A model generated the notes under the pieces. That model did no database searches. It saw only the letters and a program-made list of their open reading frames with translations, and had not been told where the DNA came from. 32,012 nucleotides of DNA, from the NCBI GenBank assembly GCA_021808815.1, contig JAKBAT010000006.1, positions 1 through 32,012 on the forward strand, given 5' to 3'. Position numbers and translations under genes: made by a program. Below, piece after piece: positions 9,660-17,777 of the stretch (its first letter is position 1; each line of letters starts with the position of its first letter). The DNA is from Pseudomonadota bacterium. Its GTDB lineage: Bacteria; Pseudomonadota; Gammaproteobacteria; Burkholderiales; Ferrovaceae.

Positions 9660-9995
9660 TCAGGCGCCGCGACGGATATCCTTGTTCATTTTCAGGGCCA
9701 GCGTACCCACACTGCCGCCATTGAAGGCCTGCTGGTAGCCCAGCTGGCGCATGACCGACAAGGCGTGCCCGGAGCGGGCCCCCGAGCGGCAGTACAGGAT
9801 GACCGGGGTATTCTTGTCCGGCACCACCCGATGGATGTCATGGTTGAACCGGTCAAGCGGCAGGTTGAAGGCGCCGTCGATGTGCCCCGACATGAATTCC
9901 GTGTGGCTGCGCACATCGATCAGGCGAGCATCCTGGGGCAGGTCAACGGCATCCCGGCCGCTGATGGCCCCCATGAAATGTGAAAAAAAACCCAT
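9660..9995 (-). CDS. Rhodanese-like domain protein
   Basis: ORF 111 aa: LIDVRSHTEFMSGHIDGAFNLPL and active-site CRSGAR. Confidence 0.92.
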   Translation of the reverse strand: MGFFSHFMGAISGRDAVDLPQDARLIDVRSHTEFMSGHIDGAFNLPLDRFNHDIHRVVPDKNTPVILYCRSGARSGHALSVMRQLGYQQAFNGGSVGTLALKMNKDIRRGA

Positions 9996-10016
9996 TGCGT
10001 CGTACTCCCCAGTCCT

Positions 10017-11294
10017 TCAATGTTTGTCTTGCAAACGTTCGATGCCCATCCACTTGAGTACATGCTTTTCATAGATGGGTTCGGAATTGCCCTGCTTCAT
10101 CTTGTAGATGAAATATTTTTCGAAGGCCACCTTGGCCCAGTGCACCCACCGCGCCTTCTTGAACCAGTTCACGTTGCGCGGGGGGATCTGTGGTAGCGCC
10201 ACGAAGGCCGCACCGGTATTTCCCATGTCCGCCAGGCAGAAGGCATTCCAGGTCCCCTTGCTGTCGGCGGGCTGTCCGTTGAGATCGGCCCAGATGTTGT
10301 GCACGATGGCCGACACCATGGACTCGATCATGTAGCCGGTTTTGGGGGTTCCGGTCGGAACCGGCGTCACTTCCACGGGGGGAATGGCGACGCACACGCC
10401 TGCCGAGAAAATGTTGCGGTATTTCTTGCTGCGCTGATGCTCGTCCACGATCACGAAACCACGTGGATTGCACAGCCCCTCCACCCCGGCCACGGGTTCC
10501 ACACCCTTGAACGCCGGCAGCATCATGCTGAACTTGAACGGGAGCTCATGTTCCTTCTTGACGTTGCCCTGGTCATCGAGCTCGGTGACGAACATTTTTC
10601 CTGCTTCCACCTTGGTCACCTTGGCATTGGTGATCCACTTGATGTCATTGTTGCGGAACTCGCTTTCCAGCATGGACTTGGAATCGCCCACCCCGCCGAG
10701 GCCCAGGTGGCCGATGTAGGGCTCGCTGGTGACATAGGTCATGGGGATCTTGTTGCGGATTTTGCGGTTGCGCAGGTCGCGGTTCACGATGAAAGAAAAC
10801 TCGTACGCCGGCCCGAAGCAGGAAGCACCCGCAAAGGCGCCGATGATCACGGGACCGGGAGCACTCAGCAGTTCCTGGTAACCCTGGTAGGTCTGCTCCG
10901 CGTGGTCCACCGTGCAGATGGAGTGGGTGTGCCCATTGGGGCCCGCCCCTGCCACTTCCTCGAAGGCCAGTTTGGGTCCCGTGGCAATGACCAGGTAGTC
11001 ATAGGCCAGCCGGCTACCGTCACCAAACTCCAGGGCATTTCCTTCGGCATCGACGCGGGTAGCGGGCTGCCCCACGAACTCGATCCCCTTTTTCGCCAGA
11101 CAGGGACGAATCGGGAAGGTGATGGCCTCGCGATCACGCCAGCCCACGGCAAGCCAGGGATTGGAAGGAACGAACTGGAAGTATTCCACTGCGTTCACGA
11201 CAGTGATGCGATGGGATTTGTCCAGCTTGTCCCGCAATTCATAAGCCGCCGGCATCCCCCCGGTTCCAGCCCCCATTACGACAATATGTGCCAT
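10017..11294 (-). CDS. sqr: Sulfide:quinone oxidoreductase (FAD-dependent; resembles the Acidithiobacillus ferrooxidans-type SQR)
   Basis: ORF 425 aa: [23 protein letters not shown] motif; [10 protein letters not shown]; three Cys in SQR-like contexts ([29 protein letters not shown]); [13 protein letters not shown]. Confidence 0.93.
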
Positions 11295-11308
11295 GAGATA
11301 GTCCTCCC

Positions 11309-12778
11309 TTAAGGTTGGTGCTGTGATTTTGGCACTGCCGGTTCATCTTTGGGCATTTCCAGCAGAGCATTGACGGCCTGCAGCTCGGATTCCTGCAGTT
11401 TGCCTGCAAGAGCCTCCAGCTGTAGCCGGGTGAGAGCCAGTGCGGCCCGGGCTTGCAACCACGCCATGCGGGCCCCGGCCGCATCGCTTTCCGCATTGAG
11501 CAGATCCAGTGTACTGCGATCGCCGACACGTTGTCCCAGCCGCGTGGCCAGGAGCCGCGCCTCGCTTGCCTTGAGTGCTGCCGCCAAGGCGTCCAACCTG
11601 CGCATGCCCGTGGTCAGCCCCAGCCAGGACGCCCGCGTCTGCAGGGCGACCTGCTGCCGGGCACGATCCGTTTCATTCAGCGCCTTGTCGGCCAGATGGC
11701 GGGCCTCCTCCTGTCGGGCGCTGCGCGCGCCCCCTGTATACAGGGGAACGGTCAGCTGCAGTCCCACCACTGCCGTGTGCAGGGTATTGCTGGCTGCGCC
11801 GTAGTCTCCACTGCCCGAGAGATGGTCGCGCGTGACTTCGCCCACCAGATCCAGGGAAGAGGTCCCCAGTACGCCATAGCGCGCCGTCTCTTCATGGGCC
11901 ATGTCCACTTTCATCATCTGCATGCGCAGGCCGGGGTTGCCGGCCGCCGCATCGTCAAGCCACTGCTGGAGGGAAGCCCCCCCGGGCACGGGCATATCGC
12001 CCCGCGTGGGTTGCAACACCTCGAGGGAGGCCAACGGCAACCCGGTGGCATCGGAAAGGGATGCCTGCTTGATTTGCAGGTCGGTTTCGGCCGCCGCGAT
12101 CTGGGCCCGGATGGCTTCCACCCGTGCCTCGGCCTCGTGGGTGTCGATAATGGGTACGTCTCCCAGACGGTAGCGGGCCTGGACTTCGCCCAGGGCCTTT
12201 TCCACAGATTGCTCCTGCTGACGGGCCACGCGCAAGCTTTCCTGCGCCAGCGCCACGTCAAAATAACGCTGCGCCGTCCGCAGCATCAGGTCCTGGCGTG
12301 CCATTTTCCATTCCAGTTCCGCAATTTCCGCCTTGTCATCCAGCTGCCGGCTTTGCGACAGGCGGTCCCGGCTGAGCAACGGCTGCCGGGCCGACAGGGC
12401 CCAGCGATCGAGCGTCCCGTTGTTGATGGAAGTATTGAAAGCGGCGTTGTTGGTGACTGGAAACCCGGGAGCGGCAAATTGGGCCCCCTGGATCTGGCTG
12501 TCGTTGGTCATCCGCCCTGCCGTGCCCGATGCCTGGACCGTGGGGTGCCACAGGGCATGGGCCTGGTCACGCTGGGTGGTGCCGGCCTCGTGGGCTTCCT
12601 GCGCCGCCAGAAAGTCGAAATCGTGTTGCTGGGCCGCCTGCCAGGCTTGCACCAGATCGAGGGCCATGGCCGGTGCCGCCAGCATCCCGCCCAACACCGA
12701 CACCGCCCCGGCTCGCAGCATCTGCCGCGACAGGAAAGATGGCCAGGCACGCACCGCCCGTTTCAGGAACTTCAACAT
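11309..12778 (-). CDS. TolC-family outer-membrane efflux protein
   Basis: Start set at [18 protein letters not shown]...; signal peptide followed by [21 protein letters not shown] and the duplicated coiled-coil pattern ([20 protein letters not shown]...[38 protein letters not shown]). Confidence 0.92.
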
Positions 12779-16212: not shown

Positions 16213-17262
16213 TCAGTTCCCCGCTGCAGTCAACGCGGCCTGGGCATCCGGCGCCACTTTCTCGCCAGGGTTGAGTCCGCTCAGCACTTCCACCTGATCA
16301 TTCCAGACTTGCCCCAGGCGCACCTGGCGCAACAGGGGATGACCCTGGGCATCCAACACATACAGCCCGGTCATTTCTGCCCGGCGCACCACCGCCGCCA
16401 GGGGCACACGCAGGGGAGCCGCCATTTTTCCGCTGCCGGGTATCCATGCCCGGGCAAACATGCCCGGCACCAGGCCATTGGCAGGTGGCAGACCGAAGCG
16501 CACCTCCACCGTATGGGTGGCGGCATCCACGGTGGGCAGCACCTTGACGGAAAGGGGTACCACCCACTGTGCGCGTTCGGAATGCCCCGGCAGCTCGATG
16601 CGGGCCGCATTGCCCGTTGCCTCGCCTGCCAGCGCGCCCTGGGGAATATTGGCCGTGGCGCGCAGCCGGGCAGGATCGTAGAGGGTGAGCAGGGATCGTC
16701 CCGGCATGGCCATGTCCCCCACCACCACCGGTATTTCCGCTACCACGCCGGCATAGGGCGCCCGTACGGTGAAATAACCTGCCTGGGCCTGGGTAGCTGC
16801 TGCCTGGGCGGTTTGTGCCTCGGTTTCCGCCTGGGTTGCCTTGAACCGGGCCTCAGCCCTTTCCAATGCCGCCTGGCTGATGTAGTCCTGGGCAAACAAC
16901 TGCTTCTGCCGTTCCAGATCGCGTGTGGCCACCGCCAGCGCCGCCTGTGCGGAGCGTACCTGGGCTGCACTGGCAAGGGCTGCCTGATGGGCGGCCTGTC
17001 CGTCCAGGCGCAGCAGCACCTGCCCCGCCTGAACCCGGTCCCCCGGTTTCACCGCAATCTCCACCACGGCGCCGGCCACCTGGGCAGCCAGCACGGTTTG
17101 CCGTTCGGCTTCCACCACGGCATCGAAACTGTTCAGGGTGGTGGGAGGCGCCGCTGCCTCCGGTACTGTTGCCGGCGCTGCCAGGCCGAAATGCAGCGGC
17201 AGGACGACCAGGCCCAGCACCCCCAGCAATCCCTTCACCCATCTGTTTTTCACCAATTCCAT
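16213..17262 (-). CDS. RND efflux periplasmic adaptor (membrane fusion protein)
   Basis: Start set at MELVKNRWVKGLLGVLGL; VEAERQTVLAAQVAGAVVEIAVKPGDRVQAGQVLLRLDG and FTVRAPYAGVVAEIPVVVGDMAMPG lipoyl/HlyD motifs. Confidence 0.94.
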   Translation of the reverse strand: MELVKNRWVKGLLGVLGLVVLPLHFGLAAPATVPEAAAPPTTLNSFDAVVEAERQTVLAAQVAGAVVEIAVKPGDRVQAGQVLLRLDGQAAHQAALASAAQVRSAQAALAVATRDLERQKQLFAQDYISQAALERAEARFKATQAETEAQTAQAAATQAQAGYFTVRAPYAGVVAEIPVVVGDMAMPGRSLLTLYDPARLRATANIPQGALAGEATGNAARIELPGHSERAQWVVPLSVKVLPTVDAATHTVEVRFGLPPANGLVPGMFARAWIPGSGKMAAPLRVPLAAVVRRAEMTGLYVLDAQGHPLLRQVRLGQVWNDQVEVLSGLNPGEKVAPDAQAALTAAGN

Positions 17263-17339
17263 CCCTGTCTCCCGCCCAATACCATGCTGATGACTATAAG
17301 CGTTACTGCCTGCCATGACCATGCAATAATCCATGAAAC

Positions 17340-17365
17340 AACATTATGTATATTTATATAATGTT
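17340..17365. promoter_or_regulatory. AT-rich inverted repeat, candidate ArsR/BigR-type operator between the efflux cluster and the regulator
   Basis: AACATTAT-GTATATTTAT-ATAATGTT: perfect 8-bp arms, 26 bp overall; a TATAAT hexamer (17357-17362) sits in the right half. Confidence 0.7.
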
Positions 17366-17408
17366 TTCGTGTATAGTGTCAACAGTTTTCGCATTGAGGA
17401 AAACAGAC

Positions 17409-17777
17409 ATGAAGGCAGATACCCCCTCAGCCACCCCTGATTTCAATGCCATGTACGCTTCGGCGGACCGCGCCTGCAGCCTGCTCAAGGTGCTCGCCAA
17501 TCCTGACCGGTTGGTACTGCTATGCCGGCTTGCGGGCGGCGAAAGCTGCGTGAGCGAACTGGAAGCCTCGCTGGATATCCGCCAGCCCACCCTGTCCCAG
17601 CAGCTCGCCGTACTGCGTGAGGAAGGATTGGTGAGCACGCGGCGCGCGGGCAAGCACATTTACTACAAAGTGACGAGCCCGAAATCGATCGCCATTCTCC
17701 AGGCGCTCCAGGAACAGTTCTGCACACCGGCAGACAAGACGAAACTCAGTGCGTTGCGACAGCCGCCTCGGGGTTGA
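17409..17777 (+). CDS. ArsR-family transcriptional regulator with BigR/SqrR-like two-cysteine arrangement
   Basis: [11 protein letters not shown]...[84 protein letters not shown]; Cys in the LLCRL helix and in the C-terminal QFC match BigR/SqrR sensor cysteine positions by memory. Confidence 0.88.

Follow-up and report, generated by a model that had tools for sequence, protein, structure and literature searches.

The locus examined here raises the question of why the genes for a complete efflux pump of the resistance-nodulation-division (RND) family should stand in one run with genes of sulfide oxidation. It lies in a 32,012 nt stretch of contig JAKBAT010000006.1 from a member of the Ferrovaceae (Burkholderiales), hereafter called the window. 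Genes for a membrane fusion protein (MFP), an RND permease, a DUF2892 protein, a TolC-type channel, a sulfide:quinone oxidoreductase (SQR) and a rhodanese follow one another head to tail, and the gene for an ArsR-type regulator is divergent from them. The spacings measured from the MFP to the rhodanese gene were 7 (MFP/RND), −4 (RND/DUF2892), −7 (DUF2892/tolC), 14 (tolC/sqr) and 21 nt (sqr/rhodanese), confirming the layout of six tightly spaced genes on one strand with a divergent ArsR gene that was noted in an original prediction made from the letters of the window. The disposal of the sulfane sulfur made by SQR is partly understood, the known routes being oxidation, reduction and the export of sulfite or thiosulfate. 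We are highly confident that the locus represents a real and conserved sulfide-linked RND module. The best single reading of its substrate, to which we would give an even chance, is the export of sulfane-sulfur compounds: the genes would form an operon against sulfide stress, in which a type I SQR and a dedicated tripartite RND pump act side by side.

Conservation of the module and its co-occurrence with SQR

Relatives of the pump were present in 179 of the 399 genomes searched, all from the same order, the Burkholderiales. Gene neighbourhoods were read at 137 close loci taken from the window, from genome stretches and from genome contigs; a few of these loci stem from a genome that was sampled both as a stretch and as a contig, and neighbours were counted only at loci with enough flanking sequence. 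An MFP gene was found at 116 of 121 pump loci and an ArsR gene at 95 of 121 (divergent in 86), DUF2892 genes were found at 104 of 109, with no or almost no gap to the pump gene in 87, and TolC genes at 55 of 109. SQR and rhodanese genes accompanied the pump at 38 and 35 of 102 loci, respectively, and the full set was present in 12 loci. Isolates with SQR in the cluster included Malikia spinosa, Derxia gummosa, Extensimonas perlucida, Undibacterium macrobrachii, Simplicispira psychrophila and Paraburkholderia kururiensis. Near other RND genes, ArsR, DUF2892, SQR and rhodanese genes were found at none of 40 control loci, which came from 14 of the genomes already sampled; these controls were chosen from the match list rather than by random draw, and the neighbour profiles, which were built from the pump loci themselves, were applied equally to both sets. 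The search for conserved synteny suggested with the original prediction has thereby been run, and the arrangement recurs in more than 100 genomes, compared with 0/40 controls. Chance or an annotation artefact was ruled out on the same counts.

In other Pseudomonadota, pumps 41–61 % identical to that of the window often lay beside SQR, DUF2892, ArsR or rhodanese genes, in varied orders and orientations, and for distant pumps within the Burkholderiales linkage was read at two loci (L097 and L098). Further relatives in the same range of identity were found without SQR, DUF2892, ArsR or rhodanese partners, and several of these have three to five cysteines. On the pump tree, linkage to SQR changed 27 times yet kept recurring. 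The retention of partners through rearranged gene orders points to function rather than to inherited order.

A close type I SQR was encoded in 124 of the 399 genomes. The pump was present in 122 of these (89 with a close relative and 33 with only a more distant one), compared with 57 of the 275 genomes without such an SQR, and at the genus level it was found in 57 of 58 SQR genera. SQR and pump lay within 10 kb of one another in 39 of the 85 genomes in which both were listed and were unlinked in the other 46, so that co-occurrence does not rest on linkage alone. Although bacterial gene order is partly inherited and SQR was found in only 38 of the 102 pump loci with enough flank, it is very improbable that common descent or transfer alone has brought pump and SQR together and that they share no function, given the differing gene orders among lineages, the 27 changes of linkage and a co-occurrence in 122 of 124 genomes despite the 46 in which the two are unlinked.

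By its sequence, the window SQR is a genuine type I enzyme. Its best solved relative was the type I SQR of Acidithiobacillus ferrooxidans (E 2e-183; 3kpk/3sz0 relatives), and the catalytic residues Cys127, Cys159 and Cys353 were invariant in 46 of 46 relatives. It was the sole match at E ≤ 1e-110 in the window genome. The active-site Cys69 of the rhodanese was kept in 39 of 39 relatives and Cys54 of the DUF2892 protein in 123 of 123.

The features of the locus are listed in Table 1. By inspection, the most likely start of the ArsR gene is 17409, and a longer open reading frame (ORF) from 17346 would begin within the palindrome between the divergent genes; the most likely starts of the MFP and TolC genes are 17262 and 12778, with ORFs reaching 17334 and 12973, respectively. 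The ArsR gene and a uroporphyrinogen-III methyltransferase gene converge, with a 32 nt overlap of their 3′ ends (17746–17777). The locus adjoins a reverse dsr cluster on the minus strand (17746–31362), in agreement with the neighbouring dsr operon of the original prediction. This cluster comprises dsrA (30058–31362), dsrB (28980–30089), dsrM, dsrK, dsrL, dsrO and dsrP, together with a cobB/dsrN-like gene, the gene for a YbiB-like glycosyltransferase and that for the uroporphyrinogen-III methyltransferase.

Table 1. Genes and predicted control elements of the pump locus, in window positions
Feature	Position	Strand	Remarks
Single-domain rhodanese	9660..9995	-	111 aa
Type I sulfide:quinone oxidoreductase (SQR)	10017..11294	-	
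TolC-family outer membrane channel	11309..12778	-	489 aa, no cysteine
YgaP-like transmembrane protein (DUF2892)	12772..12981	-	69 aa; PF11127 YgaP-like_TM, 38.8 bits
RND permease	12978..16205	-	1075 aa, no cysteine; forms an uncharacterised subfamily by itself; model closest in fold to AcrD/AcrB
MFP (periplasmic adaptor of RND pump)	16213..17262	-	Signal-peptide-like N-terminus, no cysteine; TIGR01730, 183.7 bits
Predicted operator	17340..17365		Perfect palindrome AACATTAT-N10-ATAATGTT, whole site AACATTATGTATATTTATATAATGTT; between divergent genes
Promoter-like element TTGACA-18-TATAAA	17353..17382	-	Into putative pump operon, overlaps operator; found by eye
SqrR/BigR-like ArsR repressor	17409..17777	+	122 aa; Cys 23, 39, 47, 105

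Two types of ArsR regulator and their predicted operators

Cys39 and Cys105 of the window regulator align with the cysteine positions of SqrR, and its best alignments were to SqrR and BigR. Its score of 102.7 bits is below the NCBIfam BigR cut-off of 155, so that 'SqrR/BigR-like' is a fitting description and 'BigR' is not; the earlier naming of a BigR/SqrR-like regulator stands in the sense that both cysteines are kept, but does not extend to BigR proper. The SqrR cysteine pair was present in just 31 of 103 regulators at pump loci, and 70 were SmtB-like proteins with an LCDLVC motif (seen in L048, L099, L101, L125 and about 66 others, many with TATTTGC-N8-GCAAATA). As about two-thirds of the classifiable regulators are SmtB-like, the term 'persulfide-controlled' that was applied to the operon in the original prediction cannot be generalized from the window. 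Persulfide control of all relatives was ruled out on the count of 31/103. Linkage to SQR was equally frequent with both types (SqrR-type, 12 of 31; SmtB-like, 28 of 70), and the expectation that it would track the SqrR type failed. Neither a close solved structure nor a specific NCBIfam name was found for the LCDLVC type, which possibly represents a new type of thiol-based sensor.

The predicted operator of the window is a perfect 8 bp inverted repeat with a 10 nt spacer. Position 17340–17365 was the sole site in the whole genome assembly that matched its core (ACATTAT-N10-ATAATGT) with fewer than three mismatches, which indicates a local predicted regulon; sites within three mismatches of the core were merely about twice as frequent as with a reversed-pattern control. 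A wider regulon in the window genome was rejected, because every other match to the core in the whole assembly had at least three mismatches. A second, partial site at 17356–17379 is weak (three mismatches). The promoter-like element was missed by a stricter promoter scan; a similar TTGACA/TATATAA context was seen at three related loci (L040, L042 and L052).

Palindromes of the window type (≤3 mismatches) were present at 14 of 17 SqrR-type loci and at 2 of 65 SmtB-like loci, whilst TATTTGC-N8-GCAAATA was present at 35 of 65 SmtB-like loci and at 1 of 17 SqrR-type loci; shuffled sequences gave about one. Both consensuses were derived from the loci tested, and the comparison across types is therefore the meaningful control. 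The regulator type changed at least 6–10 times on the pump tree (FastTree), and these repeated changes, taken with the type-specific operators, indicate that the control system was exchanged together with its operator whilst the pump module stayed.

The pump and its putative cargo

With a permease, an adaptor and a TolC-type channel encoded together, the pump has the tripartite make-up of the HAE type. The best score of the permease with an NCBIfam multidrug permease model was 440 bits, below the cut-off of 1250, and no curated permease-family cut-off was reached. The best structural matches of its predicted model were AcrD, MdtF and AcrB, not CusA or ZneA; at a mean pLDDT of 72 the model is too coarse for the binding pocket to be read. 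An identity as a CusA/CzcA metal pump was ruled out on the match to AcrD/AcrB and on a TIGR00914 score of 258.6 bits against a cut-off of 701. The proton-relay residues of AcrB (D407, D408, K940, R971 and T978) were mapped onto the pump by reading the alignments: the aspartate pair of transmembrane helix 4 (D418/D419) is invariant, R1007 and T1014 are also kept, and the position of Lys940 is taken by an invariant Arg977.

No cysteine was present in 115 of the 137 pump relatives and a single one in the remainder, compared with 3 cysteine-free proteins among the 40 control RNDs, most of which had one to three. The lack of cysteine would be apt for a pump whose cargo reacts with thiols, although the sequences are related to each other and the pattern is suggestive only. 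At about 44 % identity, distant relatives that had no sulfur partner (L240–L242 and L245–L247) contained three to five cysteines, and sulfur-linked pumps contained none or one.

The recurrent extra neighbours of the pump had mostly thiol or sulfur functions. These included TrxC in 28 loci, often within the gene run, TauE in 13, an ETHE1-like dioxygenase in 11 and OsmC in six. A TPMT/TehB-like methyltransferase, which could methylate sulfide or thiols, was encoded in 12 loci (L056, L064, L079, L115, L128, L156, L158, L159 and family-f1 loci), and a P-type ATPase-like cluster was found near the pump in 11. In 12 loci (L042, L043, L046, L049, L040 and others) a gene for subunit II of cytochrome bd, an oxidase known for sulfide resistance, stood about 1.5–3.5 kb away from the module.

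An operon of Azospira suillum PS (Dsui_3440–3443) encodes an MFP, an SQR, a 'cation/multidrug efflux pump' and a protein of unknown function (PMC5358917). Its expression was strong in the presence of H2S, Bar-seq in H2S singled out this operon alone, and its deletion left the rate of H2S oxidation unchanged (PMC5358917), so that detoxification or export fits better than a part in oxidation itself. Its authors described no conserved family and proposed the export of metal sulfides (PMC5358917). A pump that removes metal ions, or metal-sulfide complexes formed when sulfide meets the metals of the cell, with sulfide as the cue and metal as the cargo, would also agree with the SmtB/metalloregulator-type ArsR proteins with paired cysteines that make up about two-thirds of the classifiable regulators. 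We consider such a cargo unlikely, however, because the permease falls so far under the CusA/CzcA cut-off, its model does not match CusA or ZneA, the pump has no cysteine, and no metal-handling family recurs as often as TrxC or TauE, the P-type ATPase-like cluster reaching 11 loci.

Export of hydrophobic toxicants, damaged quinones or lipids by a general envelope or multidrug pump, for which sulfide would merely signal respiratory stress, is in keeping with the AcrB-like fold of the predicted model, with the presence of the pump in the 57 genomes without a close type I SQR and with the broad substrate range that RND pumps often have. This explanation is made rather unlikely by the repeated and specific association with SQR and other sulfur genes, which is absent from the 40 control RND loci, by the near-absolute presence of the pump in SQR genomes and by an operator that is local to the cluster.

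If sulfane-sulfur compounds are the cargo, as we prefer to think, what is known of the families concerned suggests the first steps in the working of the module. SQR would oxidize incoming sulfide to sulfane sulfur (persulfides and polysulfide), which would link Cys39 and Cys105 of the ArsR repressor, release it from the predicted operator and so open the divergent operon. The rhodanese, or in relatives TrxC or a persulfide dioxygenase, would transfer or reduce the cytoplasmic sulfane sulfur. More speculatively, the RND–MFP–TolC pump may expel a small molecule that contains sulfane sulfur or has been modified by sulfur, taken up from the periplasm or from the outer leaflet of the inner membrane, and the small cysteine-bearing YgaP-TM protein may serve as an accessory of the pump or as a sulfur carrier.

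The functional tie between pump and sulfide oxidation put forward in the original prediction is supported by the co-occurrence in 122 of 124 genomes, the rearranged linkage, the sulfur-related neighbours and, in the window, SqrR-type cysteines with an operator of their own. Several points nevertheless weigh against sulfane sulfur as the cargo. The AcrB/AcrD-like fold of the model also suits ordinary amphiphile export, and RND pumps do not typically transport soluble polysulfide. About two-thirds of the relatives with a classifiable ArsR carry the SmtB-like type, which lacks the SqrR cysteine pair, and a close pump is encoded in 50 SQR-negative genomes, so that the substrate may not require SQR. 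An unrelated control RND was also enriched in SQR genomes (31 of 124, compared with 8 of 275), and shared ancestry therefore explains part of the co-occurrence of pump and SQR; this control was nonetheless missing from three quarters of the SQR genomes. Finally, the match to the Azospira genes is one of annotation and order rather than of sequence, and the Bar-seq result (PMC5358917) is taken here only as a sign of involvement.

A bolder proposal, which we regard as possible but somewhat doubtful, casts this unnamed and nearly cysteine-free RND family in the role of a dedicated exporter for reactive sulfane sulfur. In this proposal the pump works with the YgaP-TM protein and its invariant cysteine, accompanies type I SQR almost obligatorily within the Burkholderiales, and is controlled by either of two thiol-based ArsR switches, of which the LCDLVC type would be a new sensor of reactive sulfur. 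Should the pump prove to be the export arm still lacking for sulfane sulfur, a substantial part of the sulfide-oxidizing Burkholderiales would have it, an RND family without a name among the curated NCBIfam models would gain a physiological role, and a second type of ArsR sensor for the same signal would be indicated.

Comparison with known systems

The general idea has already been published, and the link of an RND pump to sulfide regulators or to a sulfide operon is not wholly new. The author of the original prediction knew of no characterized system with this exact six-gene set; the genes have, however, been reported as the H2S-induced operon of A. suillum PS (PMC5358917). Like that operon, the window has SQR, MFP, RND and small membrane protein genes in one run, and the order MFP–SQR–RND–DUF2892 recurs in three loci (L085, L086 and L178), whereas in the window SQR comes after TolC and a rhodanese is added. 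RND pumps were also named in 2025 among the neighbours and probable targets of ArsR regulators that respond to sulfane sulfur (PMC12423496). In the open-licence literature searched, no named RND exporter of persulfide or polysulfide was found, and there was likewise no account of the conserved pump family, of its almost obligatory association with SQR, of the two regulator types and their matching operators or of the cysteine pattern.

With the SqrR/BigR/YgaV-type repressors the locus shares a divergent two-cysteine ArsR gene beside sqr and rhodanese genes, whereas the targets described for them are enzymes and TauE/YeeE-type transporters (PMC12423496, PMC9995734, PMC9774250); no study of an RND protein as a target of such a repressor was found in the literature searched. 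The ygaVP operon of Escherichia coli likewise combines a SqrR/BigR-type regulator with a rhodanese and the YgaP transmembrane domain, but the window has one gene each for the rhodanese and the transmembrane domain, and carries an SQR and a complete RND pump besides. AcrAB-TolC, AcrD and MdtF, which are of the HAE type, resemble the window pump in their tripartite architecture, in the AcrB-like fold and, as the alignments were read, in the residues D418/D419, R1007 and T1014. The window pump differs from them in its identity of about 22 %, in R977 at the position of Lys940, in the almost complete lack of cysteine and in its association, which is with SQR and not with drug-responsive regulators.

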